64,000 nt of DNA from the NCBI RefSeq assembly GCF_001590835.1, contig NZ_LTAQ01000001.1:989496-1053495 (forward strand). The letters are read 5' to 3'. Positions within the stretch are counted from its first letter, which is position 1, and every line of letters begins with the position of its first letter. Position numbers and translations under genes: made by a program. This document shows positions 2,726 to 8,236 of the stretch, in pieces. The notes under the pieces are model-generated. The model was not told where the DNA came from and did not search any database. It worked only from the letters and a program-made list of their open reading frames with translations. The DNA comes from Bacillus gaemokensis. GTDB taxonomy: Bacteria; Bacillota; Bacilli; Bacillales; Bacillaceae_G.

Positions 2726-3052
2726 ACAAAAAACCTCTCATCCCTAGAAAGGGACGAGAGGTTATAGATTCCCGCGGTACCACCCTAAATTAATGTAATA
2801 AAGGATGTTCAAAACGTTCGGTAAAGATCGCTACCCGATTTCTTTATCCTCCTTTTTGAACAAGCACTAATACATACATTCGCTTAGATCCGTAACGTGG
2901 ATTAACGGCAATTGCTACTAAAGATTTCACAACTGCAACTCAAAGGCGAGTTCATAACGAAACGTGGATTGACTTGCACCGACCGTCAACTCTCTAAACC
3001 AGCTTCTATTACTACTACTCCTTCTCACTGTTATTACACATATGAGTTAATT
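2726..3052 (-). promoter_or_regulatory. T-box leader of leuS (tRNA-Leu sensing)
   Basis: Read on the minus strand, the leader carries the T-box core AGGGTGGTACCGCGGGAA (complement of about 2770-2787). Next comes a strong terminator hairpin (stem around 2732-2763, CCTCTCGTCCC pairing with GGGATGAGAGG) and a U run. The region at about 2940-2955 reads GAACTCGCC, so the likely specifier is CTC (Leu) at 2950-2948. Uncharged tRNA-Leu should stabilise the antiterminator and allow leuS transcription. The outer limit near 3052 is set by the predicted transcription start. Confidence 0.92.
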
Positions 3053-3058
3053 AAATAT

Positions 3059-3087
3059 ATTCTAAAACATGTTACATGTTCCGTCAA
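3059..3087 (-). promoter_or_regulatory. SigA-type promoter of the leuS leader
   Basis: On the minus strand, TTGACG (complement of 3082-3087), a 17-bp spacer and TAGAAT (complement of 3059-3064). The spacer holds the short palindrome ACATGT twice. The -35 box lies directly at the stop codon of the upstream MFS gene, and I see no terminator between them, so some read-through from that gene into the leader is likely. Confidence 0.75.
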
Positions 3088-3088
3088 A

Positions 3089-4282
3089 CTAAACTGCAAT
3101 TTTTTCTTCTGCTGTTTCTTCAACTTTTACTCGTTTATCATAAATACTCGTTGCTATAAGCGCTACTACAAGCATTACCATGATTGCTATAAACAATACT
3201 TCCATATTGTATATGTCAACAATCGCTCCGCCGACAACAGGTCCGAACATTTTCCCAACAGTTGCTGCACTATTTACAACACCTTGATAAAAACCGAGCT
3301 TATCATTCGGTGCAAGGATGTTCGCAATTGTTGGAACTGCTGGCCATACGAATAATTCACCAATTGTTAATGTCACCATTGCAACAAGGAACATTGTAAA
3401 TTGCTGCGCTTGGCTAAGTACAATAAACGACACTGCAAAAATACCGATTCCAATCATAATTTGTTGTTTTAAAGAACGCTTCATCGCCCGAATCATCATA
3501 CTTACTAGTGGCTGTGCACAAACAATCATCGCTCCGTTTATTGTCCATAATAAACTATAATGACGAAGGCTAATATTTAACTCTTGCATATGCGTCGCAA
3601 TAGCTCCTTGCCACTGTACATATGTAACCCAGCATAAAGCATATGCGACACATACGATAAGAAGCGCCTTGAATCCTGGTGTAAGTGACCAACCTTTTGT
3701 CTTTTCTTCTTTTACTTCTACACTCTTATCTTTCTTATCTTCCATACCTCGGAATCCAATAAAAGCAATTAAGAAGAAAATAAAGTATAAAATAAAGTTC
3801 GCTAAGAAAATATAATCAAAACGATAAGAAGCAACTAAACCACCGCACGCTGTTCCAATAGCGATCCCAACGTTTTGCCCGACATACATCGCATTAAATG
3901 CTCTCCGCCCGCCTTCTGGCCAAACCGTACCAACCATCGCATACATCGACGGGAATACCATTCCAGAACCAAAGCCAATTAACGCAAGCCATACAACATA
4001 CAATGGCCAGCCATGGAAGAATACAAGACCTAAAATCGATACTAGTGTAATAACAATTCCTACTAAAATGGATTTATATCCGCCCCATTTATCAAATAAA
4101 ACACCGCCGAGTAAATTACCAATTACCCCAGTTAGTGAGTTAATCATTAATACCATTCCGGCTACAGACAATGATTTTCCTAAATGATCATGTAAATAAA
4201 TTGTATTAAAAGGCCATAAAAAAGAAGCACCCGTGACATTAATGATCATCCCAGCTACTAATAGCCATACTTTCCTTGGCAT
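3089..4282 (-). CDS. MFS transporter, DHA1-type
   Basis: A 397-residue integral membrane protein with about 12 predicted transmembrane segments, in the size range of drug/proton antiporters. The start is ATG at 4282 (MPRKVWLLVAG), chosen because GGAGGGGAAACT precedes it; the longer frame from 4357 runs into the promoter. Conserved MFS elements include the loop between TM2 and TM3, GGVLFDKWGGYKSI, which matches the G-x-x-x-D-R/K-x-G pattern, and the GP-rich segment GPVVGGAIVDIYN. The tail is charged (KRVKVEETAEEK). The substrate cannot be told. It is transcribed toward leuS from its own promoter. Confidence 0.88.
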   Translation of the reverse strand: MPRKVWLLVAGMIINVTGASFLWPFNTIYLHDHLGKSLSVAGMVLMINSLTGVIGNLLGGVLFDKWGGYKSILVGIVITLVSILGLVFFHGWPLYVVWLALIGFGSGMVFPSMYAMVGTVWPEGGRRAFNAMYVGQNVGIAIGTACGGLVASYRFDYIFLANFILYFIFFLIAFIGFRGMEDKKDKSVEVKEEKTKGWSLTPGFKALLIVCVAYALCWVTYVQWQGAIATHMQELNISLRHYSLLWTINGAMIVCAQPLVSMMIRAMKRSLKQQIMIGIGIFAVSFIVLSQAQQFTMFLVAMVTLTIGELFVWPAVPTIANILAPNDKLGFYQGVVNSAATVGKMFGPVVGGAIVDIYNMEVLFIAIMVMLVVALIATSIYDKRVKVEETAEEKIAV

Positions 4283-4328
4283 AGTTTCCCCTCCTATTCT
4301 GTTTTTTCGTTCTACCCATAATAGTAAA

Positions 4329-4357
4329 ATTGTAGTCGTTTTTATATAGGAAGGCAA
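4329..4357 (-). promoter_or_regulatory. Promoter of the 3089-4282 MFS gene
   Basis: On the minus strand, TTGCCT (complement of 4352-4357), a 17-bp spacer and TACAAT (complement of 4329-4334), about 47 bp upstream of the ATG. Confidence 0.6.
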
Positions 4358-4400
4358 CTGATTAATAGTTGATGAAATTCAGATAATAGTACCCACAACA

Positions 4401-4430
4401 AAATCCGCCTCTGCGTAGAGAGACGGATTT
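4401..4430 (-). terminator. Terminator between the two MFS genes
   Basis: Stem AAATCCG / CGGATTT directly after the stop of the 4435-5592 gene. On the minus strand the T run is short (TTTTGTTGT); the hairpin is also followed by CTTTTT on the plus strand. Confidence 0.6.
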
Positions 4431-4434
4431 CTTT

Positions 4435-5592
4435 TTAACGCTTTTTCTTTTCTTTTACATAATCTATATAAACCAAAACAGCTACAAAAATAAAGCTTAT
4501 ACTAATAATCCGGAAGATCATCTCTAAACTTATCCATTTCGCTACAATTCCTAATGCAAATGCACTAATCCCAACGCCAACATCAAAACTTGAAAAGAAG
4601 GTTGCATTTGCCGCTCCGCTTTTTTCTGCGCTAACCTTTTGCACCGCCCACGTTTGTAAACAGGGCATAACCGTTCCGTAACCTGCCCCAAATAAAATCG
4701 CTGCAATAATAAGATACAAATTATTTGTCGCATAAGATAACATAACAAACGATAGAAATCCTAATATTGCTGAGACGATAATAATCGACCAAGGCCCTTT
4801 TTTGTCGTACCATTTTCCCGTAAAGGGACGTAGTAAAGTTGAAACAATTGCATTAACTAGAAAGAATAGAAAGATGTGATCCAATCCTTTTTGTTTTCCA
4901 AAAAGAACTAAAAAAGTAAGAATCGCTCCAAAACCGAGTGTTGTAATAACTGCTAGTAACGCTTGGAACCATACTTCTTTTTCAAAGATCATCTCAAAAA
5001 AGCGAAATGGTTGTTTATCACGCTTTACAGGAGTAGGAGCATGAACAAATAAAAGCATAATAGTTGCTAGTAAACTAAGTGTTGCTGACGACAAAATTAA
5101 AATCTCAAAAGAAAAAGTATTGTAAATAAAAATCCCTATACTTGATGCAATAATAGCTCCGACCGTTGTAGAAACAGAAAAATATCCCATTCCCTCTCCT
5201 AATCGCTTACTAGGAATTAAATCTACCGCTATTGTACTATTAGCTGTTGTTGATACGCCCCATGCAGCGCCGTGAAAAATCCGTACAAGTAAAAACAGCC
5301 ATACAATATTCAGAAACGGATATATACATATAATACTTAGTAAAGCTACACTTGCGCCAATCGCTAAGCTTTTCCCTTTATTATCGATTAAATAGTATCC
5401 TACAAATGGTCTAATGAATACCGCACCTACCGTAAACAACGTTGTCACTAAGCCTACTTGAACTGAAAAGGCCTTCATACTTATTAAATAAGCTGGCAAA
5501 ATAGGGAGTATCATTTCAAACCCGATAAACACAAAAAAATTACTAAGAAATAAACAAATAAATGATCGATTAAATATTTTTTGATTTTCCAT
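4435..5592 (-). CDS. MFS efflux transporter behind a leader-peptide attenuator
   Basis: 385 residues with about 12 transmembrane segments; a major-facilitator drug-efflux type protein. The N-terminus (FIGFEMILPILPAYL) and the TM2-3 loop (RPFVGYYLIDNKGK) fit the DHA1 group. The ATG at 5592 has GCGAGG with a 9-nt spacer. That ribosome binding site is partly buried in a 10-bp hairpin whose other arm lies at the end of a 19-codon upstream ORF, so translation is probably inducible by ribosome stalling on that ORF. Antibiotic-induced expression is known for other Bacillus and staphylococcal resistance genes built this way; the inducer and substrate here are unknown. Confidence 0.88.
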   Translation of the reverse strand: MENQKIFNRSFICLFLSNFFVFIGFEMILPILPAYLISMKAFSVQVGLVTTLFTVGAVFIRPFVGYYLIDNKGKSLAIGASVALLSIICIYPFLNIVWLFLLVRIFHGAAWGVSTTANSTIAVDLIPSKRLGEGMGYFSVSTTVGAIIASSIGIFIYNTFSFEILILSSATLSLLATIMLLFVHAPTPVKRDKQPFRFFEMIFEKEVWFQALLAVITTLGFGAILTFLVLFGKQKGLDHIFLFFLVNAIVSTLLRPFTGKWYDKKGPWSIIIVSAILGFLSFVMLSYATNNLYLIIAAILFGAGYGTVMPCLQTWAVQKVSAEKSGAANATFFSSFDVGVGISAFALGIVAKWISLEMIFRIISISFIFVAVLVYIDYVKEKKKR

Positions 5593-5603
5593 ATCGTGAT
5601 TCC

Positions 5604-5636
5604 TCGCTTCTAAATTGTTTTTTAACTTAGAAGCGA
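5604..5636 (-). promoter_or_regulatory. Hairpin sequestering the MFS ribosome binding site
   Basis: Perfect 10-bp inverted repeat: TCGCTTCTAA (minus-strand reading of 5636-5627) and TTAGAAGCGA (5613-5604), with a 13-nt loop. The second arm contains the first four bases of GCGAGG, the ribosome binding site of the gene starting at 5592. The first arm overlaps the last codons of the leader ORF, so a ribosome stalled there would open the hairpin. Confidence 0.75.
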
Positions 5637-5681
5637 CCAGATCACTGAAACGTTTTTCAATTGTCTTAGTCTTTTAGCCAA
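5622..5681 (-). CDS. Leader peptide, 19 residues
   Basis: TTG start at 5681, preceded by GAGGG with an 8-nt spacer, then 19 codons and TAA. The product reads MAKRLRQLKNVSVIWSLLS. It is basic at the N-terminus and hydrophobic at the end. It ends 29 nt before the start of the MFS gene, and its last codons form one arm of the hairpin that covers the MFS ribosome binding site. A second inverted repeat (TTCAATTG / CAATTGAA, 5656-5686) includes the leader start itself. Position, ribosome binding site and hairpin overlap fit a translational attenuator; the peptide matches none that I know. Confidence 0.65.
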   Translation of the reverse strand: MAKRLRQLKNVSVIWSLLS

Positions 5682-5711
5682 TTGAATCACCCTCTCTCGT
5701 TCACATTACAA

Positions 5712-5739
5712 TCTATATCAAAACATCGTTTTAACTCAA
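5712..5739 (-). promoter_or_regulatory. Promoter of the attenuator-MFS transcript
   Basis: On the minus strand, TTGAGT (complement of 5734-5739), a 16-bp spacer and TATAGA (complement of 5712-5717). Transcription would start near 5705, giving a leader of about 113 nt before the MFS ATG, enough for the leader ORF and hairpin and little else. Confidence 0.6.
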
Positions 5740-5745
5740 AATAAA

Positions 5746-5782
5746 AATCCCGTATTAAAAATAACACTTTTAATACAGGATT
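5746..5782 (-). terminator. Terminator of the khtT-khtU operon
   Basis: Near-perfect 15-bp stem (AATCCTGTATTAAAA pairing with TTTTAATACGGGATT on the minus strand, one mismatch), followed by a T-rich tract. It lies about 120 nt beyond the khtU stop and just upstream of the next promoter. Confidence 0.75.
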
Positions 5783-5902
5783 CTACTCTATATAATCATT
5801 CTTGGCAACTTCCTTTCGTATCCATTTAAGAATGAATAACCTATCCAATTTAAAGTTTTTTGAACTAACTTCTATAACGCTGGAATCGTTCCCTTATAAA
5901 AA

Positions 5903-7126
5903 TCATCCAACTTCTTTTTTCCGTTTTGCACTTTCTTTAGAGCTCCATTTAAATATTTTGTCCAATAGAGAATATATTCTTGCAGATTCCTTCGTTAGTA
6001 AAGGCCCTAACGATGCCAATATTAAAACATATAAAGCTGAAAATGGTTTAATTGTTGCCATTAAGCCACCAGCTATTCCAATATTAGCGACAATAATGGA
6101 GAATTCTCCGCGTGATACAAGAGTTAATCCAATATTCGTAGAAGCCTTATGTGATAACCCAGCTTTACATCCAGCAATCATTCCAGCTGTAAAGTTACCG
6201 ATGATAGTTATCAAAACCGCTCCTAAAGTTAGCCAAACAGCTCCACCTAACGAAAAAGGATCTATACTTAAACCGAAGCTGAAGAAGAATATAGCTCCAA
6301 AGAAATCACGAAACGGAACGACAAGATGCTCAATGCGGTCACTATGCTCTGTTTCAGAAAAGACAAGTCCTAATAATAAAGCACCAATCGCCTCAGCAAC
6401 ATGGATTGTTTCTGAGAATCCAGCGACGAAGAACAAAATTGCGAATATTACGATAATAAAGATTTCATTAGACGAAATATCCAGCACTTTATTCAAGAAC
6501 GGCGTAGCTTTTCTAGCAATCACAAAGAATAACAACATGTATCCTAATGCAATTAAAACAGATGTCAGAGCTCCTACAAATGAAGTCGCACCTCCGAGTA
6601 CTAAGCCTGAAACGACAGATAAATATACTGCTAAAAAGATATCATCAAACATAATGATCCCTAATATTAGCTCTGTTTCTTTATTACCTGTTCTTCTCAA
6701 ATCAACAATTACTTTCGCTACAATTGCACTTGATGAGATTGTAATAATTCCGGCAATAATTAATGTTTCTAATAGAGGAAAACCCATTACATATCCATAA
6801 AGTAAACCTAATGTAAAATTAAGTGATATGTGAATAGTGCCTCCAATGGCGATTGATTTTCCTGATTTAATTAACTTTTTCATTGAGAATTCTAACCCTA
6901 AATAAAACAGGAGGAATATGACACCAATACGGCCTAGGAAAGCAATGACTTCTCCACTTTCAATGAACCTTAAGTCTATAATTCCTAAATCTGGGGCATG
7001 TGGTCCCACTAACATACCGAGGATAATGAGAAACGGAATAATCGAAAACTTTAGTCTTGCAGCAAGGATGGCCGCAAATGCCACTAATACTAACGCAGTT
7101 CCAACTTCAAAAATTAAAGTATCCAT
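5903..7126 (-). CDS. khtU: K+/H+ antiporter membrane subunit
   Basis: A 407-residue CPA2-family cation/proton antiporter with about 12-13 transmembrane segments (PF00999-type fold). It is the length of B. subtilis KhtU (YhaU), which expels potassium in exchange for protons. It starts with ATG at 7126, 3 nt after the end of khtT, so the two are translationally linked. Helix-rich segments such as GLEFSMKKLIKSGKS, AIGALLLGLVFSETEH and LVSRGEFSIIVANIGIAGG match this family. The soluble regulator KhtT upstream gates the channel in the known system. A long open frame on the opposite strand (5802-6800) is only its shadow. Confidence 0.93.
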   Translation of the reverse strand: MDTLIFEVGTALVLVAFAAILAARLKFSIIPFLIILGMLVGPHAPDLGIIDLRFIESGEVIAFLGRIGVIFLLFYLGLEFSMKKLIKSGKSIAIGGTIHISLNFTLGLLYGYVMGFPLLETLIIAGIITISSSAIVAKVIVDLRRTGNKETELILGIIMFDDIFLAVYLSVVSGLVLGGATSFVGALTSVLIALGYMLLFFVIARKATPFLNKVLDISSNEIFIIVIFAILFFVAGFSETIHVAEAIGALLLGLVFSETEHSDRIEHLVVPFRDFFGAIFFFSFGLSIDPFSLGGAVWLTLGAVLITIIGNFTAGMIAGCKAGLSHKASTNIGLTLVSRGEFSIIVANIGIAGGLMATIKPFSALYVLILASLGPLLTKESARIYSLLDKIFKWSSKESAKRKKEVG

Positions 7127-7129
7127 CGA

Positions 7130-7627
7130 CTACGAATCACCTCCTGCCGAAAGTACTTCCTTAATGATTCTTTTAATTTCGTGCCTTTCCCCTGATAATA
7201 CCAACATATCACCAGCATCAATAATAGAATCTGGGCCTGGATTAAAAAATTTCTTCATATTCTTCTTCAAAATAGCAATGACAGTTACGTTATACGTTTT
7301 TCTAATAGCTAAACTACCGATTGTTTGCTGAACCGCTGGCGCATTATTCTCCACTTTAAACCACTCAATCGATAATCCTTCAAACGCCATTTCAATCGTA
7401 TCTAAAGCTTGCGGTCTGTATACCATTCCGCCTAATATGGCAGCGATTTGTCTCGCTTCAGAGTCACGAAGAGAAATGCTTGAAACACTTTCTTCATGAT
7501 CAGCATCAAAATGATACATTTCTCTTCGCCCATCATCGTGAATAACGATAACCATTTTTTCATTACTTTTTGTTATGACTTCAAATTTACATCCGATACC
7601 CGGAAGTTCGCTTTCTCTAATATTCAT
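7130..7627 (-). CDS. khtT: K+/H+ antiporter regulatory subunit
   Basis: A 165-residue cytosolic protein ending in a TrkA-C (RCK_C) domain (about residues 85-165: NVTVIAILKKNMKKF ... DMLVLSGERHEIKRI). B. subtilis KhtT is the same length; there it binds KhtU and confers pH and c-di-AMP sensitivity. I chose ATG 7627 (MNIRESELPGIG), which has AGGAGG 7 nt upstream; an in-frame ATG at 7633 sits too close to the same site. The start MNIRESELPGIG-x-KFE closely matches KhtT as I remember it. Confidence 0.92.
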   Translation of the reverse strand: MNIRESELPGIGCKFEVITKSNEKMVIVIHDDGRREMYHFDADHEESVSSISLRDSEARQIAAILGGMVYRPQALDTIEMAFEGLSIEWFKVENNAPAVQQTIGSLAIRKTYNVTVIAILKKNMKKFFNPGPDSIIDAGDMLVLSGERHEIKRIIKEVLSAGGDS

Positions 7628-7669
7628 ATTCATGCCTCCTAAAAATTTTTTAGTTAAGGCTCTTCCCAT

Positions 7670-8236
7670 TTATAAATCTACATCAATTTCTGTTTTAAAC
7701 TTTTCATCTTTCGAGATCCCTAAATACTTTAATGTTTCTGATGGAGTCGCATGATGAAAATGCTTTTGAAGAAGCGCAATCGCTATTCCTCTTTTATACG
7801 CATGGAATCCAAATGTTTTTCGCATTGAGTTCGTTCCAATTTTACCTGGAATTCCAATCGCTTCAGCAGCACGATGAATTACACGATAAGCTTGTTGGCG
7901 CGTAATTGGATTTGATGTTTTATTAGACTGGAATACGTAATTTTTCATCTCACTAGTAGTAGATTGTACGTATTCTAAAAGCGCTTCTTTTACTTTTGTA
8001 TTTAAATAAATATCTTGTTTAAATTTTTCATCTTTCACAGGAAGAGAATAAAAATCTTTAACAGTTCCATCTTCATTTAATACATCTTCAAATTTAATGC
8101 TTAGTAGTTCTGTAATTTTTAGTCCCGTATTAATTCCAATAACAAATAATAGATAATCTCGCTGCGAATGCTCTTTTAAATATTTTTTCATAGCTTCAAT
8201 TTGCTCTATATCTTTTAATGCCTCTACAACTTCCAT
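7670..8236 (-). CDS. Short tyrosine-recombinase-like protein, active site degenerate
   Basis: 188 residues corresponding to the catalytic half of a phage-integrase/XerC-type recombinase, with no SAM-like core-binding domain in front. The nucleophile-like Tyr is present (HATPSETLKYLGI), as is the second Arg (NSMRKTF). However, the first catalytic Arg (normally G-x-R-I-S-E) is Lys in GLKITELLSI, and the His of the H-x-x-R box is Asn. Loss of two of the core residues argues against normal recombination activity. It ends 43 bp before the khtT start on the same strand and may be co-transcribed with khtTU. It may be a DNA-binding or structural derivative. Confidence 0.8.
   Translation of the reverse strand: MEVVEALKDIEQIEAMKKYLKEHSQRDYLLFVIGINTGLKITELLSIKFEDVLNEDGTVKDFYSLPVKDEKFKQDIYLNTKVKEALLEYVQSTTSEMKNYVFQSNKTSNPITRQQAYRVIHRAAEAIGIPGKIGTNSMRKTFGFHAYKRGIAIALLQKHFHHATPSETLKYLGISKDEKFKTEIDVDL

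Follow-up and report, generated by a model that had tools for sequence, protein, structure and literature searches.

The cat attenuators have a leader of about nine residues and a hairpin over the ribosome binding site that opens, and cmlA-type phenicol exporters are also under leader-peptide translational attenuation. Here we describe an element that resembles both, the likeness to the cmlA-type systems, which belong to different organisms, being by description only: it lies on the minus strand of a 64,000-nucleotide (nt) stretch of the Bacillus gaemokensis genome (the window, meaning that stretch at its full length) and consists of a short leader open reading frame (ORF) and a hairpin before the gene of a major facilitator superfamily (MFS) efflux pump. 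In cat-86, a ribosome stalled by chloramphenicol on a short leader induces the downstream gene (available text of PMC4191407). This and the related cat attenuators of Gram-positive plasmids share with the present locus the short leader and the drug-stalled ribosome as proposed inducer; compared by description, they differ in that the leaders found here are mostly of 17-19 residues and serve an MFS pump or a CatB-like enzyme instead of CatA. The ermC and other erm leaders likewise act by translational attenuation through a drug-stalled leader ribosome (available parts of PMC4191407 and PMC10219788), whereas here one hairpin dominates, a different drug is expected and the target is a pump. For bmrB-bmrCD of Bacillus subtilis and its B. 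cereus counterpart BC0870/BC0871, a leader peptide is described that controls a drug pump in response to 50S antibiotics (PMC4191407 and PMC5417439, each in part), but these involve transcription termination and an ATP-binding cassette (ABC) pump, in contrast to a ribosome-binding-site hairpin and an MFS pump.

We consider it likely that the locus is a translational attenuator induced by phenicols and controlling a phenicol exporter not previously described, the stall, the drug class and the substrate being what we infer. Its mechanism would be of a known kind; what is apparently new is the family of leaders and its link to two unrelated genes, no description of this leader or of that link having been found in the open-access literature (where subscription papers are mostly missing). 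From sequence comparison, a widely conserved leader-peptide attenuator before the MFS pump is well supported. Its parts, all on the minus strand, are the following:

5687..5696, minus: leader ribosome binding site, GAGAGGGTGA, read from the sequence
5622..5681, minus: leader ORF of 19 codons, MAKRLRQLKNVSVIWSLLS, from a TTG start at 5681 to a TAA stop at 5622, read from the sequence
5643..5648, minus: codons 12-13, TCA GTG (Ser-Val), the predicted site of the drug stall, with Ser penultimate and the Val codon in the peptidyl (P) site, placed there from residue-12 conservation and hairpin energy
5639..5645, minus: 5' arm of the outer stem, GTGATCT, codons 13-15, which covers the ribosome binding site (predicted fold; consensus of relatives GUUCC:GGAAU)
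5624..5636, minus: 5' arm of the inner stem, codons 16-19 (predicted fold and consensus structure; CGCTTCT invariant in 22/22)
5604..5616, minus: 3' arm of the inner stem, running into the pump's ribosome binding site (predicted fold and alignment)
5601..5605, minus: ribosome binding site of the efflux gene, GAGGA, read from the sequence
5596..5603, minus: 3' arm of the outer stem (GG, a bulged A, ATCAC), predicted fold
4435..5592, minus: the regulated gene, an MFS transporter of 385 amino acids (Pfam MFS_1, 168.5 bits)

The 19-codon ORF with its own ribosome binding site and the perfect 10-bp hairpin (a Watson-Crick run, TCGCTTCTAA/TTAGAAGCGA) had been called in a sequence-only reading of this DNA and are present exactly as claimed, one arm being the last leader codons and the other overlapping the pump's ribosome binding site. 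That reading nevertheless understated the size of the structure: the inner stem reaches 13 bp (5636-5624 / 5616-5604) when one G.U and two A-U pairs are counted, and in the minimum free energy (MFE) fold codons 13-15 pair across the remainder of the pump's ribosome binding site in an outer stem that encloses it. The hairpin is followed by GCGAGGAATCACGATATG, the start of the MFS pump gene (minus strand). The 136 nt from 5710 to 5575 have an MFE of -32.1 kcal/mol against -19.2 (standard deviation 2.9) for 200 shuffles (z -4.4), none of which is as stable (0/200). For the pump type, the hairpin is predicted to mask the pump's ribosome binding site: in 28 predicted folds, the G, A, G and G of GAGG are paired in 100, 14, 86 and 96%, respectively. 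Rfam gave a sole match at E up to 1 within 3000-8000; it scores 20.9 bits, a chance level, where the gathering score is 90.

Scanning a genome collection with the pump protein yielded 23 loci, none above 80% pump protein identity, the comparison being one with wider Bacillales relatives. Breakage of the leader frame or of the hairpin in relatives had been named beforehand as the observation that would speak against an attenuator; in these wider relatives 21 of the 23 loci keep both intact. They belong to Peribacillus, Neobacillus, Viridibacillus, Psychrobacillus, Virgibacillus, Cytobacillus, Sporosarcina, Siminovitchia, Lysinibacillus, Oceanobacillus and Paenibacillus, and also to Bacillus atrophaeus. 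The leader is broken in Peribacillus frigoritolerans RU293 (L021, about 2890-3210), where the pump frame stops after 69 codons, a joint decay of the two frames; the other locus (L022), a remote relative with a pump 42% identical, has neither leader nor hairpin. Among the best 30 pump matches from 199 genomes, the single orthologue (79%) carries the element and the paralogues (42-46% identity) do not (0/29), further matches in those genomes at 33-45% identity having been left out of the paralogue count. Plasmid records include 33 that match the pump, none at 60% identity or more, and none that matches the leader. The consensus structure of 22 sequences keeps the first nine inner-stem pairs in 22/22, with variation in one pair only, and includes, across the ribosome binding site, the outer stem GUUCC:GGAAU. 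Seven of the first 10 columns of alignment A1 (22 sequences), which hold the leader's own ribosome binding site, are invariant and one more is at least 90% conserved.

The leader itself appears to be kept as a peptide. The set compared holds 28 pump leaders and 25 leaders that precede a CatB-like acetyltransferase gene (the CatB type, see below), 53 in all, of which 24 and 24 are distinct in nucleotides; the broken L021, the leaderless L022 and repeat copies of the same places were left out. Pump leaders mostly read M-x-K-x-L-R-Q-Y/L-R/K-N-V-S-V-F-Q-x-L-L-x (n=28) and CatB-type leaders M-V/I-R-R-L-K-R/K-F/L-K-N-V-A-T-A-x-x-F (n=25), with lengths of 17-19 residues in most cases (14 in L033, 22 in L001). 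Residue 12 is Ala or Ser in 53/53, namely Ser in 26 and Ala in 2 of the pump leaders and Ala in 25/25 of the CatB type. Over codons 2-12 of the 24 distinct pump leaders, the ratio of non-synonymous to synonymous change (pN/pS) is 0.44 in frame, and the two remaining frames give 1.03 and 1.20; for the CatB type it is 0.19 in frame, the out-of-frame range for both types being 0.92-1.20. Column-permuted nulls are as low in 0/300 for the CatB type and in 0/300 for both types together. Because pN/pS is low in frame only, the leader frame is, by this comparison, under protein-level constraint, and changes favour synonymous sites in the very frame that had been named for such a check. From sequence, conservation and this frame-specific constraint, the locus thus seems to have the short leader ORF with its own ribosome binding site that attenuators of the erm and cat kind possess.

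What follows residue 12 seems to be kept for another reason. Counted from the leader start, the arm GCTTCTAA begins at 47 nt in the 28 pump leaders and at 46 nt in the 25 CatB-type leaders, an offset that is conditioned, as is Val at 11, both having been required by the extractor (no hairpin locus was lost by count against unconditioned loci). It is read as Leu-Leu in pump leaders and as x-Phe in 24/25 of the CatB type, and its distance to codon 12 is the same within one base. Since two gene families read the arm in different frames with its nucleotides unchanged, the comparison indicates that the arm is kept as RNA and the residues before it as peptide.

The second gene emerged from a covariance model of the element and from a hairpin pattern that demanded no leader, both run over genome sets. 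In the class of G001 (398 genomes) the model gave six matches, of which three were pumps, two the second gene and one chance; in the family of G220 (245 genomes) it gave eight, seven of the second gene and one pump; and in the order of G002 (348 genomes, partly shared with the G001-order sample) it gave four pumps, one CatB-type locus and three chance matches. Those before the second gene were weak and had the same hairpin. Model matches L034, L057, L058 and L059 and pattern matches L049-L052 lacked both the leader and a gene of these kinds and were discounted as chance, as were L028 and L029 (model matches, E about 0.5). Within 197 genomes of the family of G220, leader and hairpin precede the CatB-like gene in 18/18 orthologues (73-100% identity) and in 0/4 homologues at 50-52%, and 15 plasmid records carry the CatB-like protein at 60-80% identity. 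The same module thus stands before an unrelated resistance-type gene, which lends further support to the erm/cat logic proposed from the sequence. On balance we lean towards seeing the element as a portable phenicol-sensing cassette, in which one fixed hairpin and a family of short leaders carrying V-A/S at residues 11-12 are fitted to a new family of MFS phenicol exporters and to a CatB-like acetyltransferase and move with them through the Bacillales.

The hairpin pattern also bears on a simpler account, in which no drug is sensed and ordinary leader translation opens the hairpin for the pump by plain translational coupling. With the leader stop at the end of the 5' arm, each leader ribosome should indeed open the hairpin briefly. 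Coupling nonetheless leaves unexplained both the kept peptide (A/S at 12 in 53/53) and the sharing with the CatB-like gene, given that 7/7 pattern matches in 348 genomes of the order of G001 stand before a pump (4) or that gene (3), with 0 in the reversed control; we regard it as improbable. Five stretches of a viral collection matched the pattern, one with a CatB-like gene and four unrelated. In the former, contig L053:236-356, the same leader and hairpin precede the gene, so that phages may spread the unit, or else host DNA may form part of the contig.

Which drug would be sensed is suggested by the second gene and by residue 12. The best NCBIfam match of two second-gene proteins is type B chloramphenicol acetyltransferase, at 206.8 and 213.6 bits (cut-off 350), against 151.7 and 158.6 bits for the Vat streptogramin A family (cut-off 300), and the best PDB sequence match of the CatB-like protein is a chloramphenicol acetyltransferase. 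CatU of Paenibacillus LC231, which acetylates chloramphenicol (available text of PMC5155152), was considered as this partner from its description only. Chloramphenicol and linezolid arrest translation best with a penultimate Ala and less well with Ser or Thr, and the Ala dependence of chloramphenicol arrest is reported in B. subtilis too (available text of PMC8987054). With codon 13 in the P site, residue 12 is penultimate, so the Ser or Ala found there in every leader would be of the residue kind of the chloramphenicol rule if the stall is where we place it. As linezolid is synthetic, a phenicol is the natural candidate of the two. The same attenuator might instead answer to another 50S drug, such as streptogramin A, a lincosamide or a pleuromutilin, in which case the CatB-like gene would encode a Vat-like enzyme that acetylates streptogramin A: both models match the partner gene and neither reaches its cut-off, and such drugs induce other attenuators, for example bmrCD by lincomycin (PMC4191407, in part). 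We hold this to be unlikely, as CatB is ahead of Vat in 4/4 second-gene proteins scanned, the best PDB match points the same way and Ala/Ser at 12 fits the phenicol rule. The inducer is thus most likely a phenicol, which narrows the drug list drawn up from the sequence (macrolide, lincosamide, phenicol or pleuromutilin): phenicols are favoured by the residue-12 rule and the CatB-like partner, and macrolides become unlikely for reasons of motif and geometry given below.

We propose that, when drug is absent, the pump's ribosome binding site would be caught in the hairpin with leader codons 13-19, which would hold pump translation low. With a phenicol present, the leader ribosome would stop with codon 13 in the P site and Ser12 (Ala12 in some relatives) penultimate; covering the outer arm together with part of the inner one, it would open the hairpin and so allow the pump, which would be a phenicol exporter, to be made. 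Predicted energies are consistent with this if the ribosome edge is assumed to lie 15 nt after the first P-site base. The structure left downstream with the P site at codons 11, 12 and 13 is then predicted at -13.3, -4.7 and -0.5 kcal/mol for the pump type and at -14.7, -7.1 and -2.2 kcal/mol for the CatB type. Opening the pump's ribosome-binding region is predicted to cost 14.3 kcal/mol in the free RNA, 12.3 with the P site at codon 10, 4.3 at codon 12 and 1.5 at codon 13, where the cost is below the free value in 28/28; the corresponding estimates are 13.3 free and 4.5 at codon 13 for the CatB type (lower in 25/25) and 11.6 free and 1.8 at codon 13 for the window's own sequence. GAGG is likewise predicted to be freer at codon 13 in 28/28 of the pump type.

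The same calculation bears on macrolides. Leaders of the ermD type stall at a Lys/Arg-X-Lys/Arg motif near the leader start, and a macrolide-induced attenuator of that sort could be read into the K-R-L-R of the window leader and the R-R-L-K-x-x-K of most CatB-type leaders. Position 4 is Asn or Asp in 11/28 pump leaders, so that the motif is not kept; a P site at codon 5 or 8 brings no fall in the predicted opening cost of the pump type (15.9 and 16.5 kcal/mol against 14.3 free); and NCBIfam and Pfam scans show no likeness of either gene type to a known macrolide gene. The pump type thus lacks, by conservation and by predicted geometry alike, the conserved motif placed to open the hairpin that would mark an erm macrolide leader, and macrolide induction is very improbable.

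Several points weigh against a phenicol-induced attenuator as set out above. Pump GAGG is predicted to gain freedom as early as codon 10 (mean unpaired 0.69, compared with 0.27 in the free RNA), and at every later codon the hairpin is predicted to remain open, so that the stall register is not sharp and geometry alone does not single out codon 13. For the CatB type, GAGG, which sits beside the stem, is mostly unpaired with no ribosome present (mean 0.70); it rises at codon 13 in only 4/25 (mean 0.38) when upstream RNA may pair, and in 10/25 when the downstream RNA is taken alone. A smaller prediction run (21/28 pump and 12/25 CatB-type sequences) had given the same CatB-type behaviour in 11/12 and was repeated on all 53. 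As this GAGG is mostly unpaired and seldom freed at codon 13, the stem next to the site would have to act as a steric block in the CatB type. Because the stem pairs are nearly all invariant, there is little covariation: two of 25 pairs show any double change, and one of the two (columns 72/88) is broken in 5/22. The pump-only column-permuted null is weak, 29/300 being as low, and the synonymous-change check on wider relatives bears out the frame less firmly to that extent. The four second-gene proteins score 186-214 bits against the NCBIfam NF000490 threshold of 350, so that they are CatB-like, below the cut-off. Finally, we know of no tie of the pump to phenicols.

The pump protein reaches no NCBIfam model at its cut-off, among PDB sequences it matches NorA alone at E up to 1e-5 (residues 8-222), and its NCBIfam, Pfam and PDB matches name no phenicol exporter. 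BC4707 of B. cereus was considered as this very gene; the identity was not established, the available text of PMC3353944 giving neither leuS nor a neighbour name. The proposed attenuator gives this uncharacterised MFS pump a concrete inducer and substrate class for testing, and could explain the silence of such a pump in drug tests made without the right inducer. With a leader family that has two gene partners, comparison by itself is also enough to point to the likely stall region. The regulated pump gene is followed directly, on the same strand, by a second MFS gene that differs from it (window 3089-4357).

At the CatB-type loci, including L032:1501-1530, a small helix is predicted around the leader start codon (alignment A2, columns 6-11 with 20-25); it is a possible second control point.

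Upstream of the leader, two further features bear on how the unit is transcribed:

5712..5739, minus: possible promoter, weak, TTGAGT-16 nt-TATAGA, picked by eye and absent from the consensus scan list
5744..5784, minus: intrinsic terminator downstream of a Kef-type antiporter gene (terminator scan of 5500-5900: 1 found, 0.1 expected)

The promoter at 5712-5739, part of the unit as first read from the sequence, is unsupported: the consensus scan has no match there, and its single match in 5500-5900, a range in which 1.6 are expected by chance, lies at 5808-5780. Transcription attenuation, with the hairpin acting as a terminator, has its precedent in bmrCD of B. subtilis (PMC4191407, in part). 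It is hardly credible here, for the hairpin is followed by GGAATCACG, with no run of T, and the scan of 5500-5900 gives the terminator at 5784-5744 only; the leader terminator of a bmrB-kind attenuator is thus missing. Attenuation is very probably translational. The neighbouring antiporter gene shows nothing of note above 73% DNA identity in the genomes searched, four matches of 28-45 bases aside. Because the intrinsic terminator at 5784-5744 stands between that gene and the leader, leader and pump probably form a unit of their own, separate from the upstream antiporter gene.
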